In this document: in pieces, positions 2,940-28,928 of the stretch
Layout of the letters: every line of letters starts with the position of its first letter
Position numbering within the stretch: position 1 is the stretch's first letter
Virus record (IMG/VR): IMGVR_UViG_3300046011_006981
Location: 1 to 39,512 of that record
Length of the DNA: 39,512 bases
From: a virus
Direction: 5' to 3' (one strand)
Made by a program: the position numbers and the translations under genes
The notes under the pieces: model-generated
Told to the model about the DNA's origin: nothing
Seen by the model: the letters and a program-made list of their open reading frames with translations, nothing else
The model's database searches: none

Positions 2940-3764
2940 ATGGAATACGAATCTATCAACTCATCCCCCGATACATTAAGAATCAATAATAAAGAATTCG
3001 ATTTCAATGTAGGTAAAGCATTTACTTTCTTAGACGAGGAAACTCTTCTATGGACTTACTCTACGCATAATTATATTCTTAATGCAATGAAGAAAGCATC
3101 GGCAGAGTTGATATCGAAGGAATATACACTGAAAACTCTTCAAGAGTATGAGGTGAAGCATTTCGGTGAAATAACCGCAGGGAAAACTCTTGGGTGGAGA
3201 AAAATGATCCACAATCTCGATTATTACAGTTTGGCTAAAATAAGACAAGCGACTAATTCGGGAAGAATCTGGAAGAATATAATGTTGGGTGATGATAAGA
3301 AGGATAAAAAAACATGCATCTCTTTCTGGACGGATCAAAGAAATATCACCAAAAATCACCTAGATTTACTCGTCGAGGCATTTAAAGTTGAAAATGAGAT
3401 TTTATGGGAAGGGACAGATTCGAGAGATTTCATCTCTTTTACGCCAGGTCAAAAAGAGGAAACCAAACCTAAAGAGGTTCGAAGATTGAAAAGTGCTATT
3501 GCACCGAATATGTCTCATGAAGAACTTTTAAATATCTTAATGAGGGCGCACTATGATGCAATGATGTCCCCTTTCGAGCGAAGAATAGCAAGAGAACTAC
3601 AAGGAATGGCTGCTGCTACTCTAAAAACACACACAGGGGGATACCCAACGACTGCTGAATACAATTATAGAAGCAAATTCTCTGAAGCATTTATGCCTCT
3701 ATTGAATCAAGGTTCTTCTTTTGATGCTGCAATCAAGCAATATATGGAGGCATTTAAAATTTAA
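2940..3764 (+). CDS. Conserved-looking phage protein of unknown function
   Basis: The product is 274 residues, starts 11 nt after tRNA-Met and is mostly alpha-helical with charged segments. No catalytic motif or known domain is visible. The next gene starts 5 nt after its stop, implying co-transcription. Confidence 0.75.
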   Translation: MEYESINSSPDTLRINNKEFDFNVGKAFTFLDEETLLWTYSTHNYILNAMKKASAELISKEYTLKTLQEYEVKHFGEITAGKTLGWRKMIHNLDYYSLAKIRQATNSGRIWKNIMLGDDKKDKKTCISFWTDQRNITKNHLDLLVEAFKVENEILWEGTDSRDFISFTPGQKEETKPKEVRRLKSAIAPNMSHEELLNILMRAHYDAMMSPFERRIARELQGMAAATLKTHTGGYPTTAEYNYRSKFSEAFMPLLNQGSSFDAAIKQYMEAFKI

Positions 3765-3768
3765 ATAT

Positions 3769-4524
3769 ATGAAATTTCAATCTTTCTTCAACAGCTATGT
3801 TCAAGGTCTTACAGGATATGATGACCTTGAAAATAGGGCATATATCCAACGATTATCCCAGACGATTCATTTTCTGAACGATCTAGGATATGTCGATCTT
3901 GCAAAAGAATCTACTGTCCAATATGTCACTAATATTGATTTTGATTTGAGGGGGTATAGTGTAATTAGGGAAGGATCGTTAAACTTTAAGTATGATTCCT
4001 ATTCCCCTGAGAAACAGGATAATATTTGGTTGGTTGAATATTTTTTCAATGCTCTCCGAATCAATAAAAAGAATTTCTTTCTGACACCGTATAGTAAAGA
4101 GGAGATTAGTAAAATGTTCCTCTTTAAGGTTCATGGTTTGGATGCGGGTTTTGCCATAAAAGAAACCAACGATTATCACGGAGAACCAACCCGTGATATT
4201 GTTGCCGTTCATAATAATTCAAAAGTTAAGGGTATCGGAAAAGACCTCGTTTTCGATGCAATCAAAGAGGACGGTCAAACTTTAGACCATTTCGACGGAT
4301 TTCTTTCGGCACTCTACGGCCCATTAGGATTCAATGCATATGCCCTAGATGAATGGAATGATGAATATACTCCTAAAGATTGGGATTATAGTCCGTTGGA
4401 TATTAGAGATAAGACTTATCATGCAGATAAGCTATCAGAATATGATCCAGAAAAACTGGAGAGAAAAAGGGAACAATATGCACACGGCAAGCCTGATGTC
4501 ATATATCGTAAACTAAAAAGATAA
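3769..4524 (+). CDS. Unknown phage protein
   Basis: The ATG at 3769 is preferred over 3721 because it directly follows the upstream stop codon. The product is 251 residues with acidic and aromatic content and no signal peptide or membrane segment. The C terminus is basic. No family is recognised. Confidence 0.75.
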   Translation: MKFQSFFNSYVQGLTGYDDLENRAYIQRLSQTIHFLNDLGYVDLAKESTVQYVTNIDFDLRGYSVIREGSLNFKYDSYSPEKQDNIWLVEYFFNALRINKKNFFLTPYSKEEISKMFLFKVHGLDAGFAIKETNDYHGEPTRDIVAVHNNSKVKGIGKDLVFDAIKEDGQTLDHFDGFLSALYGPLGFNAYALDEWNDEYTPKDWDYSPLDIRDKTYHADKLSEYDPEKLERKREQYAHGKPDVIYRKLKR

Positions 4525-4556
4525 AAAAGTTCTTGCATTGGGTAGAAAATGTGGTA
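4524..4556 (+). repeat. 33-bp direct repeat, copy 1 (promoter-bearing)
   Basis: The 33 bp at 4524-4556 recur identically at 4898-4930. Each copy supplies a -35 TTGCAT and a 16-nt spacer, with the -10 hexamer (TAGTGT here at 4555-4560) starting at its 3' edge. The ATG of the next gene is 8 nt after the -10. Confidence 0.85.
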
Positions 4557-4568
4557 GTGTTAATTCAC

Positions 4569-4919
4569 ATGAATCTTCCACCTGTTGGTCTTTTATTTTA
4601 TTTCCGAAAATTTACTCAAAACGATATATGTAAAAAGTTATCCGAAGATGAGTATAACACTTTAAAAGGATATGAACCGATGTTATATCGAGCAACATAT
4701 CAAAAATATTGTGAGCGACATGAACAAAGATTAAAATCAGACATGCATCATCTTAATTCTGGCGGAAACGTCATCATCCAAACCCCGTTCGAACGTTCGG
4801 ATATAAAAGGGACAATACAAAGGATAGAAGAGGCGGAAAATTCGCCAAATTTCGTATCTTGGGCGGAACGCTCCATACCAATAATATCCTTTTTCAGAAA
4901 AAGTTCTTGCATTGGGTAG
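4569..4919 (+). CDS. Unknown 116-residue protein
   Basis: The ATG at 4569 is chosen because the upstream in-frame TTG lies inside the repeat promoter. The N terminus is weakly hydrophobic (LPPVGLLFYFRKF) and the rest is charged. The C-terminal codons run into the second copy of the 33-bp repeat, so the repeat both codes here and acts as a promoter for the RNA unit downstream. Confidence 0.6.
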   Translation: MNLPPVGLLFYFRKFTQNDICKKLSEDEYNTLKGYEPMLYRATYQKYCERHEQRLKSDMHHLNSGGNVIIQTPFERSDIKGTIQRIEEAENSPNFVSWAERSIPIISFFRKSSCIG

Positions 4920-4930
4920 AAAATGTGGTA
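4898..4930 (+). repeat. 33-bp direct repeat, copy 2 (promoter-bearing)
   Basis: Identical to 4524-4556. TTGCAT (4907-4912), a 16-nt spacer and TAAAGT (4929-4934) would start transcription near 4940, just upstream of the structured RNA unit. Confidence 0.85.
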
Positions 4931-4956
4931 AAGTTACATAAATAGAAAATAAGACA

Positions 4957-5061
4957 ATGAAACATAACGAGACATTACGCAATAATCAGTATTCCCCGAT
5001 TGGGGTCGCATCGTCATGGTGCGAGCAAAGTTTTCTCGGTTTTGATAATAAAGTCGAATAA
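4957..5061 (+). CDS. Possible 34-residue peptide
   Basis: ATG 4957 to TAA 5059-5061 encodes a 34-residue peptide beginning MKHNETLRN. It lies inside the structured RNA unit and its codons form the first hairpins, so it may be a leader peptide or chance. No clear Shine-Dalgarno sequence. Confidence 0.3.
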   Translation: MKHNETLRNNQYSPIGVASSWCEQSFLGFDNKVE

Positions 5062-5123
5062 AATAGGGTTTTAACAAACCCTATCGGTCAAGTGACCAAG
5101 GGTTAGAACTCTTTCAAACCCCG

Positions 5124-5153
5124 AAACTCACTTGATCAAGTGAGTTTTTTTTT
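5124..5153 (+). terminator. Intrinsic terminator
   Basis: A 24-nt perfect palindrome (12 bp per arm, centred on GATC, 5124-5147) runs into a T9 tract. The 5' arm contains TCACTTGA, complementary to TCAAGTGA in the upstream hairpin at 5086-5097, a layout seen in attenuators. Confidence 0.85.
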
Positions 5154-5259
5154 ATGACAGTACATTAGCCAATCGAGACAGTGAATTGGTGGAAAAAGCG
5201 CAGAATGAGCTAAAATCATTTCATCTGAGAATCAGGGGATTAAATGCCCGTAACCAACT

Positions 5260-5874
5260 ATGACACATAAAGTAAAATATACAAGAAAAGAATATAGAGA
5301 AGAATATCTTCAATCTGAAGAATGGAAATCTCTAAGGACAACTATTATGGACGCAGGGCCAAATTGTCAATGCTGTGATCAAAAAGCCACAGACGTTCAT
5401 CATCTTGTTTATCGTAACATTGTTGATATTAAAATCACAGACTTGTTACCAGTGTGTCGAAACTGTCATGATTTAATACATCAAGCTATTAGAGATGGCT
5501 GGATTTCTCAAGAGATCAAAGATTTAGAAGATATAAAGCAAAAGACGCTGAACATCAAAAACGACGAACAGTATAAAGAACACGCTAAATGGTTAGCCGA
5601 GAAACATATCCTTGATAAGGAAGATCGAGATGCTATATTATATCTGCAAGGGTTTGTCATTCAGAAAATTTCTGCTTTAGTTAGAAAAAATGTATGGCAT
5701 GATAAATTAGAAGAAATGAAATTTACTGGACGCCAAATACTTTCAATAAAAGAGATAATAAAAGTCGCAAAATTTAGAAGAGAACATAAAATAGATATAA
5801 GAAGAAAATCTATCCTAAAACCTCGCAAACATGGTGTTTTAAGTAGATCAAAAAGGTCCAAACGAAAAAAATAA
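5260..5874 (+). CDS. HNH endonuclease
   Basis: This 204-residue HNH nuclease has a zinc-type core: CQCC near 36-39, DVHH at 45-48 and CRNCHDLIH at 66-74, the order C..C-HH-C..CH..H expected of HNH/McrA-like enzymes. The C-terminal two thirds are helical and very basic, ending in repeated RSKR/KRKK, probably for DNA binding. It sits immediately before tRNA-Phe, as expected for a free-standing homing nuclease near a tRNA array. Confidence 0.85.
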   Translation: MTHKVKYTRKEYREEYLQSEEWKSLRTTIMDAGPNCQCCDQKATDVHHLVYRNIVDIKITDLLPVCRNCHDLIHQAIRDGWISQEIKDLEDIKQKTLNIKNDEQYKEHAKWLAEKHILDKEDRDAILYLQGFVIQKISALVRKNVWHDKLEEMKFTGRQILSIKEIIKVAKFRREHKIDIRRKSILKPRKHGVLSRSKRSKRKK

Positions 5875-6347: not shown

Positions 6348-6375
6348 TTGACAACAGTTTTTGATAGTGTATAGT
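6348..6375 (+). promoter_or_regulatory. Sigma70-type promoter, leaderless layout
   Basis: TTGACA (6348-6353), a 16-nt spacer and TATAGT (6370-6375), 5 nt before ATG 6381. The 28-bp block recurs at 6610-6637 with one mismatch. Confidence 0.75.
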
Positions 6376-6380
6376 TGATT

Positions 6381-6605
6381 ATGAATTATCCATATCCAAA
6401 AAAAGCAATAGTTAAACATCAAGATACATATCGCGATGGTGGGACAAAAATTTTCAGAGTGGAAAACTCTGAAGAAATAGGATTAAAATTCATCTATCAA
6501 GATTTCCGAATTCGATCCACTTCGAAAGGAAAATTCTATACGGATTATCCAAGTGATTCGGGAGCGCAAGAGATTCTTGATTCTTTTCTCGAAATTCAGG
6601 AATAA
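6381..6605 (+). CDS. Unknown 74-residue protein
   Basis: The start at 6381 is set by the promoter; the TTG two codons earlier overlaps the -10 box. The product is basic at the N terminus, beta-rich in appearance and ends SFLEIQE. No family is recognised. Confidence 0.65.
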   Translation: MNYPYPKKAIVKHQDTYRDGGTKIFRVENSEEIGLKFIYQDFRIRSTSKGKFYTDYPSDSGAQEILDSFLEIQE

Positions 6606-8763: not shown

Positions 8764-9687
8764 ATGATAAATAGAAGTATGCTTAAATTTTCACAAATCA
8801 ATGAACTTCAAATTGAAGAAGTTGTAAACGAATCCTATTCGGCTAACGAGGTGTTTCGTAAGTTAAATCTGAAAGCTACACCATCGAATAGAAAAACTTT
8901 AGCGTCATTTATTGAAAGCAAACAAATTAATATTGCTCATTTTGATCGCACCAAAAATCGAAGAGATAAACAGAGAAAACACGAGATAATAACTAAGCAA
9001 TGCCCAGTATGTGATATATCTTTCGAATGTAGTGACGGTGGATCACGTTGCAAAACAACATGTTCTATTCGGTGTTCTAATATCTTTTTTTCCGATAAAA
9101 GAATGTCGGGGGATACTAAAAATAAAATAAAAAACTCCTTAAAAAATTACCACATTAACCGTGATAAAACCTTGAAAAAAGTATTATTCGCTAAAATATG
9201 CACGATATGCGGAAAACCGTTTGAAACAAAAAAGAAAGAACAACCCACATGTTCGAAACCGTGTGGCGCAGTCATAATTAGCCAAAAAGTTAAAAGGAGA
9301 GTCTTGGAGGGGACACATAGAGGCTGGATCACTCGCCCAACGGCTAGTTATCCCGAAAAATATTTTCAACACCGTTTAACTGAATTATGTATCCCTTATG
9401 AATTTAACTATCCAGTACCAAAAAACACGTTAGGTATTCAGAAAGCTGCCGCCTATTTTCTCGATTTTTACTTTCCCGATATCAGACTAGATTTAGAAAT
9501 AGATGGAAAACAACATCTAAGGAAAGACCGTCGAGAATCTGATCTCTTTCGCGATGAACTATTGATAAAAAATGGGTATACGGTTTTTCGTATTCCTTGG
9601 GTTAACCCGATAAACGATGCAAATAAAGCGATTTTAGACTCTAAATTCGACGAATTTCTTACATTATATCATAAACTTTCTTCTTGA
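8764..9687 (+). CDS. Zinc-finger plus Vsr/EDxHD-type homing endonuclease
   Basis: This 307-residue protein has an N-terminal helix-turn-helix-like segment (NEVFRKLNLKATPSNRKTL) and two Cys clusters (CPVC...C..C near 80-110; CTIC...C..C near 145-165). The C-terminal nuclease domain reads FLDFYFPDIRLDLEIDGKQH and later DELLIKNGYTVFRIPW, the pattern of DUF559/Vsr-like PD-(D/E)xK nucleases. It lies directly after tRNA-Pro, typical of free-standing homing genes in phage tRNA arrays. Confidence 0.75.
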   Translation: MINRSMLKFSQINELQIEEVVNESYSANEVFRKLNLKATPSNRKTLASFIESKQINIAHFDRTKNRRDKQRKHEIITKQCPVCDISFECSDGGSRCKTTCSIRCSNIFFSDKRMSGDTKNKIKNSLKNYHINRDKTLKKVLFAKICTICGKPFETKKKEQPTCSKPCGAVIISQKVKRRVLEGTHRGWITRPTASYPEKYFQHRLTELCIPYEFNYPVPKNTLGIQKAAAYFLDFYFPDIRLDLEIDGKQHLRKDRRESDLFRDELLIKNGYTVFRIPWVNPINDANKAILDSKFDEFLTLYHKLSS

Positions 9688-11712: not shown

Positions 11713-11741
11713 TTGACAATTACATCAAGTTGATGTATGAT
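11713..11741 (+). promoter_or_regulatory. Sigma70-type promoter, leaderless layout
   Basis: TTGACA (11713-11718), a 17-nt spacer and TATGAT (11736-11741), 5 nt before ATG 11747. Confidence 0.75.
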
Positions 11742-11746
11742 AACGT

Positions 11747-11959
11747 ATGCTAGATGATGACGACAACAAATTCTTAAACTACAATCTAGACCTTAACAAT
11801 AATGAAATGGATTCATTGTTTGAATGGTTAAGGTCGCTCGGATTAAATGTTCAGACAGAGGTTGAAGTACCGATGGTTGACGATATTGAAGAACATCATC
11901 TGCCGCCTCCCACGGGTAAACTGTGGTATTATGGGGAGATAGTAACAGCGAAAAATTAA
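11747..11959 (+). CDS. Unknown acidic protein
   Basis: The 70-residue product has an acidic N terminus (MLDDDDNKF). Its start is 5 nt after an ideal -10 box. No motif is recognised. Confidence 0.65.
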   Translation: MLDDDDNKFLNYNLDLNNNEMDSLFEWLRSLGLNVQTEVEVPMVDDIEEHHLPPPTGKLWYYGEIVTAKN

Positions 11960-12298: not shown

Positions 12299-12307
12299 AT
12301 TTAAAAT

Positions 12308-12387
12308 GGGCATGTATACCCTTGCGCTACGAACGCATTGAAAGGTTAACTGGATACATGGGGGTTCAACTCCCTCCATGCTCGCCA
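12308..12387 (+). tRNA. D-arm-less tRNA-Arg(ACG)-like gene, copy A
   Basis: Acceptor GGGCATG/CATGCTC, anticodon arm TGCG-CTACGAA-CGCA (the loop of bacterial tRNA-Arg ACG), T arm GGGGG-TTCAACT-CCCTC and encoded CCA. Only 7 nt separate acceptor and anticodon stem, so there is no D arm. Instead TAT.CC can pair with GGATA in the 21-nt region after the anticodon arm. It aligns without gaps to the gene at 15127-15206. Confidence 0.65.
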
Positions 12388-15118: not shown

Positions 15119-15126
15119 CATTAAAT

Positions 15127-15206
15127 GGCTCAGTATAACCTCTCGCTACGAACGAGTTGAAAGTTTAACTGGATACATGCGGGTTCAACTCTTGTCTGAG
15201 TCACCA
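15127..15206 (+). tRNA. D-arm-less tRNA-Arg(ACG)-like gene, copy B
   Basis: Same length (80 nt) and layout as 12308-12387. Acceptor GGCTCAG/CTGAGTC, anticodon arm CTCG-CTACGAA-CGAG, TAT..CC pairing with GGATA, T loop TTCAACT, CCA encoded. Acceptor and anticodon stems differ from copy A by compensatory changes, while single-stranded parts are almost identical. Confidence 0.65.
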
Positions 15207-15212
15207 AAAATA

Positions 15213-15419
15213 ATGATACAGATCAATCCTACAATTCCATTAATAACACCGAAAGGTAAAGGTTTTGCTCATTTTCTAATTGACTATTCACAAGAACATG
15301 ATTTATTATGGGTCGTGTTTTTAAATGATAGTGGGCAATGTTGGACATTTCCTAATTCAGAAATTCGGATAGATAATAATTATTCATTAGGGAGAAAACC
15401 TCTTGACTCTGGAAATTAA
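15213..15419 (+). CDS. Conserved phage protein of unknown function
   Basis: The start at 15213 follows the tRNA-like gene by 6 nt. The 68-residue product (MIQINPTIPLITPKGKGFAH) resembles a small family found in several large phages (INP..PL.TPKGKG.AHFLIDY, then WVVF..SGQCWTF). That family memory is not verified here. No function known. Confidence 0.65.
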   Translation: MIQINPTIPLITPKGKGFAHFLIDYSQEHDLLWVVFLNDSGQCWTFPNSEIRIDNNYSLGRKPLDSGN

Positions 15420-15431
15420 TTGGAGTATAAT
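15403..15431 (+). promoter_or_regulatory. Sigma70-type promoter
   Basis: TTGACT (15403-15408), a 17-nt spacer and TATAAT (15426-15431). It is 5 nt before an ATG opening a 12-codon ORF and about 50 nt before tRNA-Val. Confidence 0.75.
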
Positions 15432-15436
15432 ATCAC

Positions 15437-15475
15437 ATGTTTAAAAAAAGAAAAGGATTCAGATACATCGTTTAA
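15437..15475 (+). CDS. Possible 12-residue leaderless peptide
   Basis: ATG 15437 lies exactly 5 nt after a consensus -10 box, as in other genes here, and encodes MFKKRKGFRYIV before TAA. It may be a real micropeptide or simply a start-site-like sequence upstream of tRNA-Val. Confidence 0.25.
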   Translation: MFKKRKGFRYIV

Positions 15476-15645: not shown

Positions 15646-15674
15646 TTGACAAAGAACATCTTTAGTGTTATACT
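15646..15674 (+). promoter_or_regulatory. Sigma70-type promoter, leaderless layout
   Basis: TTGACA (15646-15651), a 17-nt spacer and TATACT (15669-15674), 5 nt before ATG 15680. Confidence 0.78.
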
Positions 15675-15679
15675 ATTGC

Positions 15680-15910
15680 ATGAAAATAACCGATTTCGTC
15701 TACGATAAAAACTTCTGTCAATTTGTATATTACAGACAGAATTTACTTTATTATAGTGTAGTAAAAAAGAATACTTCTGAAAAGTATTTGTTTCCTATTC
15801 CTTTGGATGATCTCGGCGATGCAACGATTAACAACATTGAAAAGAGTATCTTTTTGATGAGGTATATGAGAAAAGCACTTGACGAAGGGACATTAGTACG
15901 ATATAATTAG
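15680..15910 (+). CDS. Unknown 76-residue protein
   Basis: The start at 15680 is set by the promoter spacing. The product is Tyr/Phe-rich in its first half and ends in a helical MRYMRKALDEG segment. No family is recognised. The next gene starts 2 nt after its stop. Confidence 0.65.
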   Translation: MKITDFVYDKNFCQFVYYRQNLLYYSVVKKNTSEKYLFPIPLDDLGDATINNIEKSIFLMRYMRKALDEGTLVRYN

Positions 15911-15912
15911 CC

Positions 15913-16140
15913 ATGAAGAAACCATTTTTGTTAATTGCAGGTTATAGCTACTATCCTTCTTCTGGGACTGGTGATTGGATTTCAACGTTTGAGACATATG
16001 AAGATGCATCGGCAGCAATATGCAAAGTTGATCCTTGGAGAGGGATCAACGAGTATAAAATGTCATCTGACAATAGTGAATATCCAACAACCTTTGATTG
16101 GTTTGAGATAGTAGATTTGAGAAAATGGACAGAAGATTAA
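15913..16140 (+). CDS. Small conserved-type phage protein
   Basis: The 75-residue product (MKKPFLLIAGYSYYPSSGTG, then DWISTFETYEDA) resembles a small phage family with the KPFLLIAGxxYYPSSGTxDW signature, recalled but not verified. Strand-helix pattern; function unknown. Confidence 0.65.
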   Translation: MKKPFLLIAGYSYYPSSGTGDWISTFETYEDASAAICKVDPWRGINEYKMSSDNSEYPTTFDWFEIVDLRKWTED

Positions 16141-18920: not shown

Positions 18921-18949
18921 TTGACAAACACTCACCAATAACCTATAAT
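18921..18949 (+). promoter_or_regulatory. Consensus sigma70 promoter, leaderless layout
   Basis: TTGACA (18921-18926), a 17-nt spacer and TATAAT (18944-18949), 5 nt before ATG 18955. The best example of the motif. Confidence 0.82.
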
Positions 18950-18954
18950 ACCAC

Positions 18955-19395
18955 ATGACATTAACATCCGCACTCAAAGTAAAAAACCGTCTCATCGGTC
19001 AACTCAACAAAATTCGTTCTGATCTTCATGAGCACAATTCAACATGTAAAGATCGAGAGATTGACATCCAAGCTCTGTGGGAAGAGGAGATCGATATCCG
19101 AAACAAGTTGATCGAACTTAAATCGAAAATTTCAAAAGAGACTGCTAAGATATCAGATAAATTGGTCAGTTTAGCCGAACACAAATCTTATCTACAATTC
19201 TTGAATGGGCTGTCTTGCCGAACAGGTGAAGATGTATCAATTGTATGTTATGGTAGTTCTGCGACCAAAACCGAAAACTGGTCTTCATATATTTCAGAGA
19301 CAACACGTAGACAGTTGATAAAAGAAACCGACGAACAAATTGCATGGTTGCAAGATGGCATCGACGAGTTTAATGCGACGACTGTTATTGATTAA
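18955..19395 (+). CDS. Coiled-coil protein
   Basis: The 146-residue product has a long heptad-like helical region (about residues 5-80), a short Cys-containing segment (SCRTGEDVSIVCYGSSA), then another helix. No catalytic motif. Function unknown; it may be structural or a regulator. Confidence 0.7.
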   Translation: MTLTSALKVKNRLIGQLNKIRSDLHEHNSTCKDREIDIQALWEEEIDIRNKLIELKSKISKETAKISDKLVSLAEHKSYLQFLNGLSCRTGEDVSIVCYGSSATKTENWSSYISETTRRQLIKETDEQIAWLQDGIDEFNATTVID

Positions 19396-28700: not shown

Positions 28701-28928
28701 ATGAGAAATAGAAAATACACATTCTGGTTTCATTACAATAAACCCTATTCAATGAAACATGGGACTGATAAATGGTCAGTCCACTATAGAGGCACATGTC
28801 ATATCGTCGATAAGATTATATGTAATGTGCCTACTTTTAGTAAAAATAACAAAACTCAACCACGGGTGGTGATGAAAGGTTATGCAGGGAACGTGGAAAT
28901 AAATGATGGAGTGTTAACGATATCATGA
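28701..28928 (+). CDS. Unknown 75-residue beta-rich protein
   Basis: ATG 28701 lies one nt after the HNH stop; the longer frame starts inside that gene. Short beta strands (YTFWFHYNKP, WSVHYRGTCHIV). Overlaps the next gene by 4 nt. Confidence 0.6.
   Translation: MRNRKYTFWFHYNKPYSMKHGTDKWSVHYRGTCHIVDKIICNVPTFSKNNKTQPRVVMKGYAGNVEINDGVLTIS

Follow-up and report, generated by a model that had tools for sequence, protein, structure and literature searches.

A putative short transcription unit, rich in 3′ hairpins and closed by an intrinsic terminator, upstream of an HNH endonuclease gene in a phage tRNA island

Genomic setting

The window, the whole stretch of 39,512 nucleotides analysed here, is a 39.5-kb virus record that represents part of the genome of an uncultivated tailed phage. 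Protein families found in the window include tail tube, clamp loader, exonuclease, and DNA polymerase; the clamp loader is ~37% identical to that of the named phages best placed among the matches listed. The window carries an island rich in tRNAs and endonucleases, with 25 tRNA genes and numerous endonucleases of HNH, LAGLIDADG, and other types. Two 69-nt copies within the tRNA island (12304–12372 and 15123–15191) are 84% identical, end in GGGTTCAACTC, and are partly tRNA-like, with no tRNA called by ARAGORN.

The element studied here lies on the + strand and is composed of a promoter-like repeat (D1, 4898–4936), a 34-codon open reading frame (ORF, 4957–5061), three hairpins (H1–H3), and an intrinsic terminator (T, 5124–5153). 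T separates the unit from the gene of a 204-residue protein (5260–5874, + strand) that matches PHROG 144, HNH endonuclease, with an E value of 2e-10. An ATG-less open frame (5144–5263) runs from the terminator to the start of the HNH gene, which it overlaps by ATGA. It may be a gene remnant or a leader started by TTG (5186). Between T and the HNH gene, the + strand contains no promoter match of at least 9/12.

D1 repeat and promoters of the phage

The 39-nt D1 repeat at 4898–4936 is 95% identical to a copy at 4524–4562 and 69% identical to a third copy at 1230–1268. Its 24-nt core, TTGCATTGGNNAGAAANTNTGNTA, occurs three times in the window against 0.01 expected, a pattern derived from these same copies. 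Every copy sits close to where a gene ends, with the next start codon downstream, and the two closely similar copies flank the gene at 4569–4919. D1 contains TTGCAT (4907–4912) and TAAAGT (4929–4934), separated by a 16-nt spacer. From these, the start of transcription of the unit can be placed provisionally near 4941. However, the two hexamers match the sigma-70 consensus at only 3/6 and 4/6 positions, D1 is absent from the output of the promoter scanner, and it is poor beside the near-perfect promoters elsewhere in the window. Thus, of the repeat-borne promoter proposed in the initial annotation, the repeat is firm and the promoter is a loose match. D1 is possibly a second class of promoter, unlike the canonical promoters of the phage.

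The near-perfect sigma-70 promoters (TTGACA, 16–17 nt, TATAAT) have a −10 box that ends a few nucleotides before an ATG; examples are at 2108–2145, 6348–6383, 11713–11750, 15403–15440, 15646–15680, 15879–15915, and 18921–18957. Among those on the + strand with 17-nt spacing, 9 of 17 have an ATG 3–9 nt past the −10 box, compared with 0.75 of 4.6 in shuffled sequence. In addition, Shine-Dalgarno-like motifs precede 2 of 40 gene starts, as against 12% of control ATGs. On these two grounds, the phage seems to use leaderless mRNAs, a possible pointer to its host. Adjacency of −10 regions to ORFs with leaderless mRNA is described for Deinococcus-Thermus (PMC12340547). Directly behind the strong terminator at 2071–2104 (AAAACGCCAGA...TCTGGCGTTTTTT) comes a near-consensus promoter (2108) that has a leaderless ATG, and the sequence of this pair reads as a clean insulated boundary.

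A 34-codon ORF in the 5′ half of the unit

The ORF at 4957–5061, overlooked in the initial annotation, is a possible small gene encoding MKHNETLRNNQYSPIGVASSWCEQSFLGFDNKVE. Its codon usage gives a log-likelihood ratio of 1.3 bits, where true coding windows average 5.1 and false ones −5.1. This score is at the 16th percentile of true windows and in the top 5% of false windows, and so falls between coding and non-coding sequence, with a slight lean towards coding. The start is AT-rich, has no Shine-Dalgarno motif, and reads ATGAAA, a combination that is the usual one in this phage. The 34-residue peptide contains no regulatory codon run, and none of the collections searched yielded a homologue; the single match in a pattern search is an unrelated, longer protein.

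Hairpins at the 3′ end

Structure is concentrated downstream of the ORF. The z score of folding is −3.56 for 4898–5160, −4.0 for 4941–5150, and −6.65 for 5062–5150, a segment that begins immediately downstream of the ORF's stop codon and whose folding energy is reached by none of 200 shuffled sequences. The ORF fills the weakly structured half of the unit, and folding of the ORF part and of 4941–5061 is no better than that of shuffled sequence (z −0.96 to −1.4). The description of ~210 nt full of stem-loops therefore holds for 5062–5150 (z −6.65) and fails for 4941–5061 (z −0.96). Among 877 windows of 90 nt scanned along the + strand, 5042–5131 ranks 9 and 4997–5086 ranks 16; for structure, the region is thus near the top of the record without being its extreme. 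The strand's top-ranking 90-nt window is 28757–28846 (z −8.4), in or beside a short ORF after 28671.

The 3′ half folds into four consecutive hairpins. H1 (5063–5084) has nine pairs and a predicted energy of −9.1 kcal/mol. H2 (5086–5097) pairs GGTC with GACC around the loop AAGT (−3.8 kcal/mol), and H3 (5098–5121), which resembles H1, has eight pairs (−6.6 kcal/mol). The fourth hairpin is T, a perfect 24-nt palindrome, AAACTCACTTGATCAAGTGAGTTT, that runs into nine T's (5145–5153). Its stem (5123–5148) has 11 pairs and a 4-nt loop, with a hairpin energy of −10.0 kcal/mol and an immediate T-run, as in an intrinsic terminator. Each of the four hairpins is dominant in the predicted ensemble, in agreement with the earlier assignment of H1, H2, and a strong terminator to these positions. 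Strong terminators were noticed at three places in the window: near 2071, 5124 (T), and 30510.

The first two hairpins resemble the last two. Alignment of H1–H2 (5063–5097) with H3–T (5098–5147) gives a score of 29, matched by 2 of 1000 shuffled pairs, and the two parts have AGGGTT, AA, CAAACC, and TCAAGTGA in common, in the same order. Their sequences point to a two-hairpin unit that was probably duplicated in tandem. Because shuffling does not keep the hairpins intact, this duplication is called likely rather than proven. When a hairpin pair is duplicated, the arms of one copy are automatically complementary to the arms of the other.

Alternative folds

The initial annotation proposed two mutually exclusive folds, as in an attenuator or a riboswitch. 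Both complementarities on which the proposal rests are present: TCAAGTGA of H2 (5088–5095) is complementary to TCACTTGA in the 5′ arm of T, and AACCCT of H1 (5077) is complementary to AGGGTT of H3 (5099). An 8-nt complement to the 5′ arm of the terminator is found in 44 of 2000 shuffled sequences. On paper, the folds do exclude each other; energetically, the alternatives do not compete once the RNA is complete. At full length, 5063–5153 forms the four local hairpins (−33.8 kcal/mol). Forcing the H2/T antiterminator gives −29.8 kcal/mol, a loss of 4.0 kcal/mol relative to the terminator fold, and forcing the H1/H3 pairing gives −30.6 kcal/mol, 3.2 kcal/mol above the minimum. About 0.15 antiterminator pairs are expected in the full-length ensemble.

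As the RNA emerges, the antiterminator is the predicted minimum-energy fold when the exposed end lies at 5134–5144. It is complete from 5138, with 10 base pairs between GGTCAAGTGA and TCACTTGATC, and is lost by 5146. This transient fold is the best argument for the initial proposal and was compared with shuffled sequence for that reason. When the upstream sequence is shuffled, the pairing is as complete in 7% of cases and the energy gain as large in 2.7%; with shuffling confined to the sequence 3′ of 5061, the values are 1.3% and 2%, respectively. These values were obtained post hoc at a single site chosen by eye and are weak for that reason. Transient nascent pairing comparable to that of T is also seen at the terminators near 2071 and 30510.

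As for the second alternative, when the 5′ arm of H1 is blocked by a ribosome-sized footprint ending at 5061, H1 and H3 re-pair and T stays intact, so the H1/H3 alternative has no route to termination. Rfam yields no family in the element, at gathering scores or at E ≤ 10, and this check gives a riboswitch no support.

Relatives and comparison with known systems

Only one record is known to carry the element. No relative covering it was found by blastn against phages, in plasmids, or by pattern searches of viral_contigs and genome_contigs; the plasmid search returned one 31-nt match, which is at chance level. Two IMG/VR records are near-identical to parts of the window, starting at 9192 and 26103 of the window, and neither covers the element; two further records are distant, and the element is outside both. 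The clamp-loader search turned up sibling as well as distant phage contigs, none of which extends to the element. The D1 core occurs in two viral_contigs entries that share the same flanking sequence. None of the window proteins tested shows a detectable relation to these entries, and this match was set aside as chance. The HNH gene has no relative in viral_contigs or genome_contigs and one weak relative in phages, and the gene at 3721–4524 has none in viral_contigs. A literature search for terminators placed before homing endonuclease genes of phages returned nothing relevant.

The stable stem, 4-nt loop, and T-run at 5124–5153 are those of an intrinsic (Rho-independent) terminator, but here T is preceded by three more hairpins in a tandem-like array. 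In trp-leader attenuators and terminator-type riboswitches, antiterminator and terminator are mutually exclusive. The element is similar in that an upstream segment can pair with the 5′ arm of the terminator and a short ORF precedes it. It differs in that it has neither a regulatory codon run nor a known aptamer, its antiterminator is uncompetitive at full length, and its upstream hairpins form independently.

A type III toxin–antitoxin leader has the order repeat RNA, terminator, toxin. The element likewise has a promoter, a tandem-like RNA unit, a terminator, and then a gene; however, the downstream protein is HNH-like and only two diverged hairpin units are present. This assignment was rejected, as the downstream gene falls in HNH PHROG families, is not ToxN-like, and has no PADLOC hit. 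Small stable RNAs occur in phage tRNA clusters, such as that of T4. The element also lies beside a phage tRNA cluster; it has no Rfam match, and phage blastn, the one comparison made, gave zero matches. IscB/IshB-type proteins have an N-terminal PLMP region. The downstream protein, by contrast, has its HNH near the N-terminus and matches ordinary phage HNH families, and an IscB/IshB-type RNA appears unlikely here.

Discussion

We give about even credence to the reading that the element is a short independent transcription unit in which a 34-codon frame is followed by hairpins and an intrinsic terminator, and in which the cross-pairings form no working switch. D1 at 4898 would direct synthesis of an RNA of ~210 nt that carries the frame at 4957–5061 and ends in a compact array of four hairpins, the last being the terminator. 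The array would have arisen by tandem duplication of a two-hairpin unit, with the cross-pairings (H2/T and H1/H3) as a by-product of this apparent duplication. The hairpins could protect the 3′ end of the RNA and would stop transcription, including that from D1 at 4524. If transcription ends at T, the HNH gene and the tRNAs downstream are set apart. Of the self-contained unit described initially, the ~210-nt extent is thus plausible, given the promoter-like repeat, the strong structure, and the strong terminator; the switch is the part that lacks support.

A small regulatory RNA of ~210 nt that codes for no protein, has a promoter and a terminator to itself, and contains the 34-codon frame as a chance opening is the reading suggested by the strong overall structure (z −4.0), the promoter-like repeat with its terminator, the intermediate coding score, and a peptide for which the searches gave no homologue. 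We consider it less probable, as the 5′ half is not significantly structured, no Rfam match appears in the element even at E ≤ 10, and the ORF has the usual start context of the phage. The element could also be a remnant of recombination between D1 repeats and of gene decay, with a terminator that insulates its neighbours and a product of its own that is unimportant. The 39-nt direct repeats that bracket the gene at 4569–4919, the crowding of the island with endonucleases and tRNAs, and the ATG-less frame from 5144 to the HNH start fit such a history; the structure of 5062–5150, far above chance, and the intact terminator do not, and we consider it improbable.

An attenuator or riboswitch would have H2, a ligand, or the state of a ribosome select between the H2/T antiterminator and T, and so control readthrough into the HNH gene. 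This is quite improbable. It accounts for the 10-bp antiterminator as the minimum-energy nascent fold at exposed ends 5138–5144, for an energy gain matched by few shuffled sequences, and for the lack of a recognisable promoter between T and the HNH gene. However, the terminator fold wins at full length, similar transient pairing arises with random upstream sequence and at the two other terminators of the window, a ribosome-sized block on H1 leaves T intact, no known aptamer is present, and duplication accounts for the complementarity. A purely kinetic version, in which the transient antiterminator is tipped by a ligand, a protein, or a ribosome on the 34-codon leader and tunes readthrough into the homing-type HNH gene, is highly improbable.

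An ordinary unit of this kind would have little significance in itself. It does illustrate that a duplicated hairpin pair before a terminator can mimic a two-state switch, and a useful precaution against such mimicry is to set nascent-chain folds against those of shuffled sequence and of terminators nearby. If the attenuator were nevertheless true, the element would regulate a selfish endonuclease encoded in the tRNA island of a phage.
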